DNA from: Polyangiaceae bacterium
Lineage (GTDB): Bacteria > Myxococcota_A > Polyangia > Polyangiales > Polyangiaceae
Direction of reading: 5' to 3'
Assembly (NCBI GenBank): GCA_020849655.1
Contig: JADLFU010000111.1
Coordinates: forward strand, 1 to 47,978
Length of the DNA: 47,978 nt
Within the stretch, counting starts at the first letter, position 1, and every line of letters begins with the position of its first letter. The notes below the pieces were generated by a model. That model made no database searches. It saw only the letters and a list, made by a program, of their open reading frames with translations, and was not told the origin of the DNA. Below, in pieces: positions 22,735 to 44,215 of the stretch. The translations under genes and the position numbers were made by a program.

Positions 22735-24041
22735 GGCGTGACGCCCCTCTCGAGGAGCGCCTCGCGCGCCCGCTCGATCGCGGCGATCGCGGCCTCGCGC
22801 GCCTCGCGCAGCGCTCGCGGGGAGGGCGGGGGGCCCGCCGCGCCGAGCCTCCTCCGCGTCGCGCGGCGCGTCCGATCGAGGCGATCGAGCCACGGCAGCG
22901 CCGCGACGGGGCACGCGAGCGCGACGATCGCCGCGGCGTGCGCCAGGGGCCGCGGCAGCAGGAGCTCACAGGCGACGACCAGCAGCGCGGCCCACGCCGG
23001 GAACACGAGCAGGCCGAGGGCGATCTTGTAAGTAGACACGACGTCTCTTTCGCTGCCGGCGAGCCGCTCGCTCAGCCGCGGGAGCTGGTACGGCGGGTAG
23101 TAGAGCACCGCGGCGCACAGCGCGAGCGGCAGCGTGGCCCACAGCCACGCCCGCCGTGGCGCCCCGGCGGGACGCGCGCCCGAGACCACGCGGTCGTCCG
23201 ACAGCCCGGCCTGCGCGAGCAGCTCGTAGTACGCGCCGACCGAGGACTCGACGTGGGCTCTCGCCTCGCCGTCGTCGAGCGCCCGCCCCGCCGCGCCGAC
23301 GCGCCGCCCGAGCGCGCTCCACTCGGCGAGCGTCCCCGCCGCGTCGGCCGCGTCGTTCGCGAGCAGCTCCGCGACGCGCCCCACGAGCACCCGCTCGGGC
23401 CACGTCGCGCCCTCCACGACGAGCGACGAGAGATCGCGCGACAGGACGCGCGTGATCTCGGCCGGCAGCTCGTCGCAGGCGGCGCCGAGCTCGTCGACGC
23501 GGCGCACGGGCCCGAACCACACGAGCGCGCGCGAGCGGAAGGTCCCGCGGTCCTCCCACTCGAGGCCGACGGCCTGGAACGTGAGGTCGCGCCCGCCCGC
23601 GTCGATCGCCCGCGCGAGCATCCGCCCCGCGCCCGTCTTCAGCGCGAGCACGTGCGGCTCGCTGTGGCTCGTGCCCTCGGGGAAGATGAGGAGGTTGCCG
23701 CCGCCCGCGAGGTGCGCGCCGACGCGCGCGAAGGCGTCGTCGTTCGCCTCGCGCCCCGCGGACGGATCGTCGCGCTTGCGCACCACCGGCACCGCGTCGG
23801 CGACGTCGAGCAGGAGCGACAGCCCCGGCGTCCTCCACAGCGTCGACTTCGCGACGGGCGAGAGATCGCACGCCGTCACGGTCGCGATGACCACCGGGTC
23901 GACGACGCCGTTCACGTGGTTGGCAGCGAACAGCCGCCCGCGCACCTCGCGCGACGGGGCGCCGACGACCTCGATCCGACGAAAGTAGACGCGCGCCGCG
24001 AGGCCGAGCGCGCCGCGGACGATCGCCTTCGCGAGCTGCAT
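22731..24041 (-). CDS. 1-acyl-glycerol-3-phosphate acyltransferase-like, with C-terminal membrane segments
   Basis: ATG at 24041 yields 436 residues; the frame extends upstream but codon pattern and the conserved N-terminus support this start. Motif I is ANHVNGVVDPV with His42 and Asp48. The spacing is HX5D, one more than the usual HX4D, and similar to Gpt2/GPAT-type members with NHxNxxxDP. Motif III is IFPEGTSHSEP (119-129). The enzyme should transfer a fatty acyl group to a lysophospholipid or glycerol-3-phosphate at the inner membrane. C-terminal hydrophobic segments (about 310-410) anchor it. It is first in a run with the reductase and the transglutaminase-like gene, and divergent from the fusion gene (64 nt between starts). 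Confidence 0.88.
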   Translation of the reverse strand: MQLAKAIVRGALGLAARVYFRRIEVVGAPSREVRGRLFAANHVNGVVDPVVIATVTACDLSPVAKSTLWRTPGLSLLLDVADAVPVVRKRDDPSAGREANDDAFARVGAHLAGGGNLLIFPEGTSHSEPHVLALKTGAGRMLARAIDAGGRDLTFQAVGLEWEDRGTFRSRALVWFGPVRRVDELGAACDELPAEITRVLSRDLSSLVVEGATWPERVLVGRVAELLANDAADAAGTLAEWSALGRRVGAAGRALDDGEARAHVESSVGAYYELLAQAGLSDDRVVSGARPAGAPRRAWLWATLPLALCAAVLYYPPYQLPRLSERLAGSERDVVSTYKIALGLLVFPAWAALLVVACELLLPRPLAHAAAIVALACPVAALPWLDRLDRTRRATRRRLGAAGPPPSPRALREAREAAIAAIERAREALLERGVTP

Positions 24042-24105: not shown

Positions 24106-25839
24106 ATGCCGAACCTCCTCGCGATGTCGTTCGAGGGCGAGCTCGCCCCGTCCTTCGATCTGCTGTGCCTCGCGCCCGGCCGTCGCGCGCCCGACGGCTG
24201 GGGCATCGGCTACTACCCGGGCGGGGAGCTCGCGGCGCCGGTGCTGAAGGAGCCCGTCCCGCTCGCGGGCAGCATCCGCAGCGAGCTCGTGAAATCGTGG
24301 GATCACCTCGCGTCGCCGCTGTTCGTGCTGCACATCCGCGACGCGACCTGGGGGCCGATCACCGACGCGAACACGCAGCCCTTCGCCCGCAGCTTCGTCG
24401 GACGCGACTGGCTCATCGCGCACTCGGGCAGCCTGCGCGAGCAGCTCGATCTCGGGCCCTCGCCAAGGTTCGAGCCGGTCGGATCGACGGACACGGAGCG
24501 CGTCTTCTGCTCGCTGCTCGCCGAGATCGCGAGGCACGGCCACCGCTCGCTCGGCGACGTCCCGCCCGAGACGCTCGCCGCGTGGCTCGGCGCGATCAAC
24601 CAGAAGGGCTCGCTGTCGCTCGTGCTCGCGGACGGCCTCGATCTCGTCGCCTACGCGGACCGCGAGGGCGCCTCCGAGCTCCACGTCGGCGAGATCACCC
24701 CGCCCTACGAGGAGGCCGTGTTCTCCGACGCCGATCTCGCGATCGATCTGACCCGCCGCGGGATGACCGCGAAGCGCGGCCTGCTCGTGTCCTCGACGCC
24801 GCTCGCGCACGAGGGCGGCGCGCGCGTGTCGTGGCGCAAGCTGCTGCCGGGGGAGCTCGCGGTCATCCGCCTGGGCGCGCTCCGGGCGACCGCGTTCGCG
24901 CCGTCGGTCGCGGGCTCGGAGCGCCGCTCGAGCGCCCCGCGGCTCGCGCTGCCCCGGTCGCGCGCGCGCGTCCGCACGTACTCCATCCGCCACCGCACGG
25001 TGTACGAGTACCAGCGCCCGGTCGAGCGCAGCGCGCACGTGTTCCGGCTCACGCCCGCGCACGATCGCCACCAGTCGCTGCTCGCGCACCAGCTGCAGCT
25101 GAGCGTCGAGGGCGAGGCGTTCGACTTCGACGACGCCTTCGGCAACACCGTGAGGAAGGTGCTGCTCGACTCGACCTACGACAGGCTCGTGATCGAGGCG
25201 CGCTCGACGGTGGAGGCGCGCGACACCGAGCCGCTCAGCATCCACCCGCGCCGCACCCGCGCGACGATCCCGATCGCGTGGATGCCCTGGCAGCGCCAGC
25301 TGCTCCAGCCGTTCCTCTTGCCGCCGGAGCTGCCGCAGACGCAGCTCGAGGAATTGTTCGAGTACGCGATGAGCTTCGTGCGGCGCAACGACTACGACCT
25401 CTTCGACACGCTGCTCGACCTGAACTCCACGCTGCACCGCGAGTACCGCTACACGCCGGGCGCGACGCACCTCGGGACGACGGCGTGGGAGGTGTACGAG
25501 GCGCGCCGGGGCGTGTGTCAGGATTTCACCAACCTGTTCATCTGCCTCGCGCGGATGCTGAGCGTGCCGGCGCGCTACGCGTGCGGCTACGTGCTCACCG
25601 GGCCCCGCGACGAGCGCCGCGCGATGGGGGACGCCTCGCACGCGTGGGTGCAGGTGTACCTGCCCGAGATCGGGTGGAAGGGGTTCGATCCGACCAACGG
25701 CAGCCTCACGCAGACGGAGCACGTCCGCGTGGCCGTGGGGCGCAACTACGTCGACGCGACGCCCACCTCGGGCACCATCTACGTCGGCGGCGGCCCGGAG
25801 CGCATGTCGGTCGACGTGCGGATGGAAGAGGCGGGCTGA
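24106..25839 (+). CDS. Class-II amidotransferase fold lacking catalytic Cys, fused to transglutaminase
   Basis: ATG at 24106 gives 577 residues; the start was chosen because MPNLLAMSFEG lines up with the MCxLLGMS start of YafJ-like class-II glutamine amidotransferases. Residues 1-265 keep the fold markers (DGWGIGYY at 30-37, HIRDATWG at 76-83, NTQPF at 89-93, STDTE). However, the essential N-terminal Cys is Pro2, and the oxyanion Asn of the HNG motif is Ser108 (HSG). Glutaminase activity is therefore unlikely. Residues 290-577 form a bacterial transglutaminase N-terminal plus core domain with a complete triad: Cys471 (RRGVCQDF), His512 (DASHAW) and Asp528 (GFDPTNG). No signal peptide is seen, so it is cytoplasmic. 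The amidotransferase half may have become a glutamyl-peptide-binding module for the transglutaminase (inference). Confidence 0.85.
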   Translation: MPNLLAMSFEGELAPSFDLLCLAPGRRAPDGWGIGYYPGGELAAPVLKEPVPLAGSIRSELVKSWDHLASPLFVLHIRDATWGPITDANTQPFARSFVGRDWLIAHSGSLREQLDLGPSPRFEPVGSTDTERVFCSLLAEIARHGHRSLGDVPPETLAAWLGAINQKGSLSLVLADGLDLVAYADREGASELHVGEITPPYEEAVFSDADLAIDLTRRGMTAKRGLLVSSTPLAHEGGARVSWRKLLPGELAVIRLGALRATAFAPSVAGSERRSSAPRLALPRSRARVRTYSIRHRTVYEYQRPVERSAHVFRLTPAHDRHQSLLAHQLQLSVEGEAFDFDDAFGNTVRKVLLDSTYDRLVIEARSTVEARDTEPLSIHPRRTRATIPIAWMPWQRQLLQPFLLPPELPQTQLEELFEYAMSFVRRNDYDLFDTLLDLNSTLHREYRYTPGATHLGTTAWEVYEARRGVCQDFTNLFICLARMLSVPARYACGYVLTGPRDERRAMGDASHAWVQVYLPEIGWKGFDPTNGSLTQTEHVRVAVGRNYVDATPTSGTIYVGGGPERMSVDVRMEEAG

Positions 25840-40071: not shown

Positions 40072-40119
40072 GGCGGCCGCCGCTTTCCGTGGGACGAGGA
40101 CGTGCTAGCTTCGCCTCCG

Positions 40120-41082
40120 ATGCAATCTGCCGTGGCCTCGGTCCACGAGCCTCTCCCGGTCATCGGTCGCCTCCGGGCCGCGGTCGAGGGCGCCCTCGAG
40201 GGCAAGCCAGAGGTGGTCGAGCTGGCCCTGGTCGCGCTGCTAGCGGGCGGGCACGTGCTGCTCGAGGACGTGCCCGGCGTCGGCAAGACGACCCTCGCCC
40301 GCGCGCTCGCGAAGGCCATGGGCTGCGATCTGAAGCGCGTGCAGTTCACGAGCGATCTGTTGCCGAGCGACATCCTCGGCGTCTCGGTGTTCGACCAGCG
40401 CATCGGCGAGTTCACGCTGCGGCAGGGGCCGATCTTCAGCAACGTGCTGCTCGCCGACGAGATCAACCGCGCGAGCCCGCGCACGCAGTCGGCGCTGCTC
40501 GAGGCGATGAACGACGGCCAGGTGAGCCTCGACGGCCAGACGATCCCGCTGCCGCACCCGTTCTTCGTCATCGCGACCCAGAACCCGGAGGACTTCGCCG
40601 GCACCTTCCCGCTGCCCGAGTCGCAGCTCGACCGCTTCATGGTGCGGCTGAAGCTCGGGTACCCACCGCCCGCCGTCGAGCTGCGGCTCCTGCTCGACCG
40701 CGGCACCGATCGCGCCGCCGACGTGCCCTCGGTGCTCGACGCCGCGTCGCTCGTCGCGCTCCAGCGGCAGGCGGAGCGCGTCGCCGTCGACCCCGCGCTC
40801 GCGCACTATCTCCAGGCCATCCTGCAGGCGACCCGCAGCTGCACCGCGCTAGCGCTCGGCGCCTCGACGCGCGCGGGGATGAGCCTCGCCCGCGCCGCGC
40901 GGTCGCGCGCGCTCCTCCGCGGTCGCGCCTTCCTCATCGCCGACGACATCCATGATCTCGCGGTCCCCGTGCTCGCGCACCGCGTGAGGCTCGCGGCCCA
41001 CGCCGAGGGCTACATGCCGTCGCGCGAGGAGGCGGAGGGCGCGGTGCACGACGTCGTCGCCCGCGTCCCCGTCCCGCTTTGA
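40120..41082 (+). CDS. MoxR-family AAA+ ATPase
   Basis: ATG at 40120 gives 320 residues. Walker A is [10 protein letters not shown] (51-60) and Walker [12 protein letters not shown] (110-120); sensor regions [22 protein letters not shown] are typical of MoxR. The family acts as a chaperone for the assembly or metal loading of partner proteins, usually encoded next to it. Here it is translationally coupled to a DUF58 protein, the standard partner. No VWA protein is adjacent. Confidence 0.96.
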
Positions 41083-42083
41083 GCGCGTGGGGGCGCATCG
41101 GCGCGCGGCTCACGATGCCGCGCCGCCTCCGGCTGACCCGCGAGGGCAAGCTGTTCGTCGGCATCACGTTCGGCGTCGGCCTCGCGGCCATCAACACCGG
41201 GAACAACCTCCTCTATCTCCTGCTCGGGATGCTCCTGTCGCTGATCGTGATCAGCGGCGTGATGAGCGAGATCTCGCTGCGGGGGCTCACCGTCGTGCGG
41301 CGCTTGCCGGCGCGCGCGCAGGTGGCCCGCGCCCACCTCGTCGAGATCGAGGTCAGCAACGCGAAGCGGCGCATCCCGAGCTACGCGATCGAGGTCGAGG
41401 ATCTCCGCGAGGGCCAGCCCGCCGACAAGCGCTGCTTCTTCCTGAAGATCAGCCCGAGCTCCGCGCAGGTCGCCGCGTACCGGCGCACGCCGCAGCGCCG
41501 CGGGCGCGATCTGCACACAGGGTTCCGCGTCGCGACGCGGTTCCCGTTCGGATTGTTCGAAAAATCGCGCGAGATCCGCGGAGAGGGAGAGCTCGTCATC
41601 TACCCGGCCGTCGACCCGGTGCGCCTGCCGGCCGATCGAGGCGGCTCGCGCCGGCTGGGCGGCGGCGCGGTGGGACGGGGCGCGGGCGACGAGATCGCGG
41701 GCGTGCGCCCCGGCCGCGCCGACGAGGATCCGCGCGACATCTACTGGCGCAAGAGCACCGTCCCGTCGCAGCTCGTCATGCGCGAGCGCGCGCGCGAACT
41801 GAGCCCGGACGTGAGCCTCACGCTCGACGTGGCCGAGCCCTCCCCCGCGGGCGACGACTGGCCGGCGCGGTTCGAGCGGCACGTCCGCGACGTCGCGTCG
41901 CGCGCGGTGGCGCACGTCCGCCGCGGCGATCGGGTCACCATCTCGACGACCGCGGGGCAGCGCGTGCGCGCCGAGCGCGCGTCGGGCACGGATCCCTTGC
42001 TGCGCTTCCTCGCGCTCGTCGAGCCGTCGAAGGCCGACGCCGCGCCCGCGCGCCCGCGCCGCCCGCTCGCGAGGGGCGCGTGA
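41079..42083 (+). CDS. DUF58 membrane protein
   Basis: TTG at 41079 overlaps the MoxR stop as TTGA, giving 334 residues; ATG at 41115 would be an alternative. Two adjacent hydrophobic segments lie at about 26-65. The DUF58 signature is [20 protein letters not shown], with the basic Trp-Arg-Lys core. A von Willebrand-like acidic fold is expected in the remaining part. In many bacteria MoxR, DUF58 and a TgpA-type transglutaminase are encoded together; function is thought to be in cell-envelope maintenance. Confidence 0.92.
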
Positions 42084-44215
42084 AGTTCGGGCTCGTGCAC
42101 CGCGTGATGACGAACGCGCTCGCGGCGCTCGGCGTCCTCTCGCTCGTCGCGACCGGTGAGCTCGGGCGGTGGGTGAACGTCGCCATCCTGGTCGGCCTGG
42201 CCTGCGCGGTCGCGGTGCCCGAGCGCTTCGGTGACAACCCGTGGGTGCGGCGCGGCTCCCAGATCGCGCCGCTCTTGTTCCTCTCGATCCAGATCGGGCG
42301 CTGGGTCTCGGGTCGGCCGCTGCTGGAGGTGGCGGTCGAGTTCGCCGCGGTGCTGCAGATCGTCCGCGTCGCCACGCGCAGCGACTCGGCGCACGACCAG
42401 CAGGTGATCGTGCTCGCGCTCCTGCACCTCATCGCGGGCACGGTGCTCGGCGGGGGGCTCGCGTACGGCGTGTGCTTCCTCGGGTTCCTCGTCGTCGCGC
42501 CGGCCGCGCTGGTGCTGTCGCACCTGCGCCGCGAGGTCGAGGGCAACTACCGCCAGGGCGCGCGCGACCGCACCGGCCTGCCCGTCGACGTGCCGCGCAT
42601 CCTGAAGAGCCGCCGCGTCGTGGGCAAGACGTTCCTGCTCGTCACGTGCTCGCTCGCGCTGCCGATCCTGCTCTTCACCGCGGGGCTGTTCACGCTGTTC
42701 CCGCGGGTCGGGTTCCACTGGCTGATCGTGCACCAGGAGGGCGGACGGCGCGTCGGGTTCTCCGATCTGGTCGATCTCGGCAGCGTGGGGCTGCTGCGCG
42801 ACGATCCGCAGATCGCGCTCCGCGTGACCCTCCCGGACCTGCCCGAGCCTCCGCCCGACCGCGTCGCCTTGCACCTGCGCGGCACCGCGCTCGATTTCTA
42901 CGACGGGCGCGCGTGGGCGCGCACCAACGTGCACCGCGCCGCCGTCGGGCAGCTGCAGCAGATCATCCCGATCGAGCGCCGCCCCGAGCCGGACGATCAG
43001 CGCGTGACGATCGATCTCGAGGCCTTCGACCCGCCCGTCCTGTTCACGCCGCCCGGCGCCGTCGCCGTCGAGATCGTGCCGCGCACGGAGTCTCCCTTCT
43101 TGCTCGGCGTCTCGCGGCTGCGGATCGAGCGCGGCGCGGAGGGCGAGCTGCGGTACCGTGACAGCGAGGAGCGCGGCGTGCGGTACCACGCGTGGGTGTC
43201 GCGCCGCGCGCGGACGAGCGCCGCCCGCGAGGACATGTCGCGCTACCTCCAGCTGCCCCAGGGCCTCTCGCCTCGCATCTCGGCGCTCGCCGCGGAGTGG
43301 GTGGGCGCCTCGCCGCAGCCGCTCGAGAAGGCGCGCATCATCGAGCGCCGGCTCCGCGCCGAGTACCGCTACGACCGCGCGTCGCCCTCCGCCGGCACGC
43401 CGCACCCGCTCGATCACTTCCTGTTCGAGTCGAGGCGTGGGCACTGCGAGTTCTACTCGACCGCGATGGCCATCATGCTGCGCACAGCGGGCGTGCCGAC
43501 GCGCAACGTGACCGGCTTCGCCGGCGGGAGCTGGAACCGCTTCAGCCGCGCGTACACCGTCCGCCAGGGCGACGCGCACTCGTGGGTCGAGGTGTGGATC
43601 GACGGCGTCGGCTGGCAGCTCTTCGATCCGACCCCGCCGGCCGAGGCGGCCCCGCAGAGCGAGCTGCGCGGCCTGACGGCCTTCCTGCGCGACATGCTGG
43701 AGGCGACGAGCCAGCGATGGGACCGCAACGTGGTCGGCTACGACATCCACCAGCAGATGTCGCTGCTCGAGCGGCTCCGCGGGTCGTTCCGCGCGCCCGC
43801 GGGCCGGCCGGCGTTCGGCGTGCCGCCGAGCACGCTCTTCCTGTCGGTCGTCGGCCTCGTGGTCGTCTGGTGGCTCGTGCGCCGGCTGCTGCGTCGGCGA
43901 CGCGCGCTGGCGAGCCCGGAGGAGGCGCGGTCGACGCCGGCCGTCCGGGCGAGGATCGCGACGGCGCTCTACGAGGCGCTCGAGGGCGCGATGAGCGCGC
44001 AGGGCGTGCCGCGCGCGCAGGGCGTGCCGCCGCTCGCGCACGCGCGCTCCTCCGACGTCACGGCGCACCCGCTCGCGAGGGAGATCCTGGACCTGACCGA
44101 GCTGTACCTCGACGCGCGCTTCGGGCACCGCGCGCTCGACGCCGCCGAGCGGGACGCCTTCCTGCTGCGGGTCAAGCGCGTCCGGGCGCACAAGATCAGG
44201 CCCGCGCGGGCGTAG
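42080..44215 (+). CDS. TgpA-type membrane transglutaminase (DUF3488 + transglutaminase + DUF4129-like)
   Basis: GTG at 42080 overlaps the DUF58 stop, giving 711 residues. Several membrane helices occupy about 1-205. The extracytoplasmic transglutaminase core has Cys456 (RRGHCEFYS), His500 (GDAHSWVEVW) and Asp516 (FDPTPP), the intact Cys-His-Asp triad. One more helix (about 592-612, LFLSVVGLVVVWWLV) and a cytoplasmic tail with the DUF4129-like ending follow. TgpA of Pseudomonas is essential for growth and is a periplasmic transglutaminase. It is the third member of this operon and probably works with the DUF58 protein and MoxR. Confidence 0.93.
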   Translation: MKFGLVHRVMTNALAALGVLSLVATGELGRWVNVAILVGLACAVAVPERFGDNPWVRRGSQIAPLLFLSIQIGRWVSGRPLLEVAVEFAAVLQIVRVATRSDSAHDQQVIVLALLHLIAGTVLGGGLAYGVCFLGFLVVAPAALVLSHLRREVEGNYRQGARDRTGLPVDVPRILKSRRVVGKTFLLVTCSLALPILLFTAGLFTLFPRVGFHWLIVHQEGGRRVGFSDLVDLGSVGLLRDDPQIALRVTLPDLPEPPPDRVALHLRGTALDFYDGRAWARTNVHRAAVGQLQQIIPIERRPEPDDQRVTIDLEAFDPPVLFTPPGAVAVEIVPRTESPFLLGVSRLRIERGAEGELRYRDSEERGVRYHAWVSRRARTSAAREDMSRYLQLPQGLSPRISALAAEWVGASPQPLEKARIIERRLRAEYRYDRASPSAGTPHPLDHFLFESRRGHCEFYSTAMAIMLRTAGVPTRNVTGFAGGSWNRFSRAYTVRQGDAHSWVEVWIDGVGWQLFDPTPPAEAAPQSELRGLTAFLRDMLEATSQRWDRNVVGYDIHQQMSLLERLRGSFRAPAGRPAFGVPPSTLFLSVVGLVVVWWLVRRLLRRRRALASPEEARSTPAVRARIATALYEALEGAMSAQGVPRAQGVPPLAHARSSDVTAHPLAREILDLTELYLDARFGHRALDAAERDAFLLRVKRVRAHKIRPARA

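Follow-up and report, generated by a model that had tools for sequence, protein, structure and literature searches.

The window analysed here, a 47,978-nucleotide stretch of contig JADLFU010000111.1 from a Polyangiaceae bacterium, contains at 24106-25839 on the forward strand, the coordinates given in the preliminary description, an open reading frame of 577 residues plus a stop codon. It encodes a putative pseudo-glutaminase fused to a transglutaminase-like enzyme, and the same fusion occurs in many genera. The protein matches the Pfam families GATase_4 (PF13230, E 2.3e-69), Bact_transglu_N (PF08379, E 8e-21) and Transglut_core (PF01841, E 6.5e-19). Residues 1-264 (24106-24897) make up a domain resembling the class-II glutamine amidotransferases (GATases), followed by a variable linker (residues 265-288, 24898-24969; pLDDT below 50 at residues 269-279) that is the fastest-changing part of the protein relative to the sister species, the bacterial transglutaminase-like N-terminal region (24979-25215) and the transglutaminase core (25393-25692), all on the forward strand. 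An acyltransferase gene on the reverse strand lies on one side of the fusion and a DAGK-like kinase gene on the forward strand on the other. Farther along the window, at 40102-44215, a MoxR-type AAA ATPase gene is followed by one for a TgpA-like membrane transglutaminase (TgpA_N, Transglut_core, DUF4129), which are unrelated to the fusion.

An AlphaFold2 model built from 68 sequences (pLDDT 88, pTM 0.84) matches the Pseudomonas aeruginosa stand-alone GATase_4 protein 1te5 in its N-terminal half (Z 31.0, rmsd 2.1 over 244 residues; 28% identity) and 3isr in its C-terminal half (Z 27.3). The Ntn GATase fold is thus present in the N-terminal domain (PF13230; 1te5), and both the transglutaminase-like superfamily fold and a Cys-His-Asp triad are found in the remainder. 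In a profile alignment with 1te5, MPNLLAMS stands opposite MCELLGMS and H-S-G opposite H-N-G, so that proline (Pro2, 24109-24111) occupies the canonical nucleophile cysteine position and the oxyanion motif His106-Ser107-Gly108 (24421-24429) lacks its asparagine. The 577-residue protein is therefore missing both the N-terminal catalytic Cys and the oxyanion Asn that are hallmarks of class-II GATases. The preliminary description had proposed the same alignment, with Pro2 for Cys and HSG for HNG, and was right in both; the serine it numbered 108 is residue 107. The ligand-binding Arg and Asp of the class are present by alignment to PDB chains as Arg78 (24337-24339; GlmS/PurF R73) and Asp129 (24490-24492; GlmS D123, PurF D127), and we take their ligand roles from GlmS and PurF, where the amino group of glutamine is bound by the equivalent of Asp129. 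Our view of the pocket is based on sequence alignment.

Stand-alone GATase_4 proteins (1te5 and the non-fused relatives L033-L036 and L176) have the same fold and most of the pocket residues but, unlike the fusion, carry their own Cys2 (the non-fused relatives read MCELLGM or equivalent) and HNG and no transglutaminase domain. The model also matches two Cys-less variants, EgtC C2A crystallised with the natural substrate (4zfl, Z 21.9) and GlmS C1A with glutamate (3ooj, Z 21.8), which, going by their entry titles, are precedents for a gamma-glutamyl or glutamate ligand held without the cysteine. EgtC, an Ntn hydrolase of ergothioneine biosynthesis that acts on a gamma-glutamyl substrate, shares the fold (Z about 22) but has an active Cys that the fusion lacks, and identity with EgtC was rejected (NCBIfam TIGR03442: 41.6 bits, with the cut-off at 218.65). 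Beta-lactam synthetase (1jgt, Z 12.5) likewise has a class-II GATase-like domain, one that has lost its glutaminase function, fused to another enzyme; its partner is an asparagine-synthetase-type domain, whereas that of the fusion is a transglutaminase.

Relatives were collected from 59 related genomes, a GTDB scan (best 80 of 323 relatives, the 243 weaker ones being left out) and 379 genomes of the phylum, in searches seeded with Cys-less proteins. This gave 107 distinct GATase domains, which were treated as fused and fall into a clade with mostly proline at position 2 (the Pro clade, 82 members, support 100/99) and a sister clade (25 members, 99/94) on a tree midpoint-rooted for drawing only. 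None of the 107 has Cys at the nucleophile position, where 4/4 stand-alone relatives do have it, and 14 more fused loci, some possibly repeats of counted genomes, are likewise Cys-less. Position 2 in the Pro clade is Pro in 77 members and Leu in 5, and position 107 is Ser (48), Ala (29) or Gly (5), never Asn; the loss of the cysteine is thus kept across the clade, while the serine is not, and the conserved feature at position 107 is the absence of asparagine. The transglutaminase triad, correctly numbered in the preliminary description as Cys471 (the nucleophile, 25516-25518), His512 (25639-25641) and Asp528 (25687-25689), is complete in each of the 102 fused proteins whose sequence covers it; the region is missing in the other five, three GTDB loci (of 80) at a contig edge and two sister-clade entries. 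The central claim of that description, a dead GATase domain joined to an intact transglutaminase, accordingly extends across the fusion clade, and the outcome that would have refuted it, fused homologues with Cys2 and HNG, did not arise, as Cys2 is absent from all 107. Matches in plasmid records (320) never covered more than 80% of the protein, and the ten best listed cover the transglutaminase half only. The fusion was also seen in metagenome-assembled genomes labelled Gemmatimonadaceae, Thermoanaerobaculia and Acidobacteria (L057, L129, L062, L094, L111), whose sequences, where placed on the tree, nest among Myxococcota, by horizontal transfer or binning error.

The start codon lies at exactly the same position in 81/81 aligned Pro-clade members (the window and 80 others; 62 ATG, 18 GTG and 1 TTG). 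Because of this conservation a longer ATG start at 24040 is unlikely and proline is residue 2, and a wrong start codon masking a Cys was rejected. Sequencing error or chance was also rejected, since the same loss is seen in another genome of the genus (91% identical) and in over 100 further fused genes. Compared with the sister species, the GATase half has a dN/dS of 0.19 and the transglutaminase half one of 0.07; both domains are under purifying selection.

Conservation within the GATase domain of the Pro clade is selective. Arg78, His106, Gly108, Thr128, Asp129 and Glu131 are each present in 82/82 members, and 27 of 264 positions are fully invariant, among them Arg78, Gly108 and Asp129; Thr81, the equivalent of PurF T76, is kept in only 56/82. 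The invariance of these pocket residues together with purifying selection on both halves points to a maintained pseudo-glutaminase and not a decaying enzyme, although part of the invariance could come from fold stability. Judged by its residues, the domain is very probably dead as a glutaminase, and it has, somewhat more tentatively, probably kept the ability to bind glutamine or a gamma-glutamyl group. Glutaminase chemistry was thus lost once or twice with the domain retained, and the protein as a whole keeps the complete triad of a transglutaminase-like thiol enzyme, with acyl-transfer or peptidase activity as its predicted function.

The genes beside the fusion in the window are not those found elsewhere. 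The DAGK-like gene recurs beside it in just one more genome, also of this genus, and a lipid-related operon of DAGK-like kinase and acyltransferase was rejected because these neighbours are not conserved; lipidated glutamate, one of the substrates suggested in the preliminary description, is left unsupported for the same reason. By Pfam assignment of neighbouring genes, a circularly permuted (CP) ATP-grasp, Alpha-E and/or transglutaminase-DUF2126 protein flanks the fusion in 69 of the best 80 of 323 GTDB loci. Both CP-ATP-grasp and Alpha-E are found in the flanks of 61 of these 80, 29 of which also have DUF2126, and DUF2126 occurs without the pair in 8 more. The window's genome carries its ATP-grasp/Alpha-E pair on a different contig (contig 8), not next to the fusion, and no DUF2126 protein was found there. 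Among relatives, Alpha-E is present in 17/17 genomes with the fusion versus 10/41 without (p 4e-8, related genomes not being independent). Several loci (L075:6209-7414, L083:6208-7401, L111:6139-7269 and others) have an additional gene that corresponds to just the C-terminal portion (about 600-1070) of the transglutaminase-DUF2126 protein, often placed between the full-length copy and the ATP-grasp gene.

The ATP-grasp, alphaE, transglutaminase and Anbu genes have been described as one operon, experimentally unexplained, with a proposed role in making or attaching peptides, and the Anbu papers give no known substrate for the system (PMC6376114; PMC5666114). The papers searched contained nothing relevant on the fusion, on a pseudo-glutaminase or on DUF2126. 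In the gene order of Caballeronia, Sinorhizobium and Burkholderia loci, the same slot is taken by a transglutaminase that stands alone, with no GATase domain, and the transglutaminase of the ATP-grasp/Alpha-E/(Anbu) operon, which lacks the pseudo-glutaminase domain, is about 34-35% identical to the transglutaminase half of the fusion. A Caballeronia gene annotated as circularly permuted ATP-grasp (L191:4383-6965) encodes 860 residues, with room for a fused Alpha-E domain, and gave no match to an Alpha-E query. We assign the fusion with confidence to the ATP-grasp/Alpha-E system; what is new here, beyond the preliminary description, is this link, including DUF2126, with the fusion filling the slot of the stand-alone transglutaminase of the proteobacterial predicted peptide-synthesis system, and the sister clade, with Ser or Thr at the nucleophile position and often an intact HNG.

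The domain's likeliest role in this setting, in our estimate with a probability of about 0.5, would be to grip a glutamine or gamma-glutamyl group and guide the fused transglutaminase. The CP ATP-grasp/Alpha-E/transglutaminase-DUF2126 system is predicted to assemble non-ribosomal peptides and to attach or trim them. Arg78, Gly108 and Asp129 of the dead domain would hold glutamine, glutamate or a gamma-glutamyl group and leave it uncut, and the substrate so gripped, a peptide product or a tagged protein, would be presented to or selected for the transglutaminase, which would then carry out acyl transfer or hydrolysis. A substrate-recognition module, as suggested in the preliminary description, would fit the selective retention of these three residues; that binding serves recognition, not sensing or scaffolding, we put a little short of even odds.

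The two main alternatives are a sensor and a scaffold. The same retained residues would suit a glutamine sensor, in which free glutamine, bound by the dead domain, would turn the transglutaminase on or off with nitrogen status, and the domain would not hold the substrate. A study of the nitrogen regulator NtrC in Burkholderia cenocepacia lists 6- to 9-fold lower expression for the DUF404/407 (ATP-grasp) gene, the DUF403 (Alpha-E) gene and two transglutaminase-like genes, which places these Burkholderia genes in the NtrC regulon (PMC5491218), one locus of that species has this gene order, and nitrogen limitation induces Anbu (PMC5666114). The stand-alone transglutaminases of the proteobacterial operons, however, do without the domain, and coupling between the two domains is conjecture; we regard a sensor as rather unlikely.

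An unlikely reading, too, is that the Ntn-fold domain is only a surface for protein-protein contact or oligomerisation, perhaps replacing Anbu, the Ntn-fold protein of the corresponding operon (PMC6376114). Anbu accompanies ATP-grasp, Alpha-E and transglutaminase genes in one subtype of the system, in other bacteria. PF00227 (Anbu/HslV) proteins are absent from the window's genome and number only one in the 36 other genomes of its family searched, and the pocket is less constant among sister-clade proteins, the Arg78 equivalent being Arg in only 18/25 members. Yet Arg78, Gly108 and Asp129 are fully invariant in the Pro clade, a PF00227 protein does occur in some fusion-bearing relatives (about 190 residues, probably HslV), and since Anbu is a proteasome-type Ntn protein and not a GATase, the replacement idea rests on the shared broad fold only. 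Nearly all genomes of the window's family lack any PF00227 protein, neither HslV nor Anbu being present.

Asn3, Trp82 and Ser109 are specific to the Pro clade and surround the old active site, which suggests that the site has been remodelled. That the Ntn pocket was rebuilt beyond silencing, with the N-terminal Pro and these three residues serving new chemistry or a new ligand, is nonetheless quite improbable. Such a ligand might be a gamma-glutamyl peptide tag from the ATP-grasp/DUF2126 ligases, and the fused domain would then be the reader or handler of a bacterial peptide-tagging system.

A different catalysis, by a Ser/Thr Ntn nucleophile in the sister clade and an N-terminal Pro amine in the Pro clade, is very unlikely. 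Pro2 should be exposed once methionine aminopeptidase removes Met, and position 2 in the sister clade is Ser in 19, Thr in 5 and His in 1 of 25, with position 107 Asn in 13 (HNG intact), Asp in 6, Ser in 3, Ala in 2 and Thr in 1. Against this, Leu replaces Pro in five sequences, the Pro clade has lost the oxyanion Asn, and in several sister-clade proteins the start codon lies 1 to about 40 codons ahead of the nucleophile position, so that their Ser or Thr is not N-terminal unless processed. Within L138-L161 of the sister clade the residue at the oxyanion position is variable (N, D, S, A, T) and some proteins are extended at the N-terminus by 1 to about 40 residues; it is possible that these proteins are Ser/Thr Ntn enzymes. 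Glutaminase activity through Cys21 (80/82 in the Pro clade) or Cys135 (82/82) is extremely improbable, as canonical enzymes also have Cys135 beside Cys2 and the missing oxyanion Asn speaks against such activity.

The preferred reading, a dead domain that holds a substrate for its transglutaminase, concerns a pseudo-glutaminase conserved and spread across Myxococcota and attached to a system that is widespread. A glutamine-type pocket, seemingly kept without catalysis, may be a clue to the substrate of the ATP-grasp/Alpha-E/transglutaminase/DUF2126 system, which would carry a free amino-acid head such as glutamine, glutamate or a gamma-glutamyl group.
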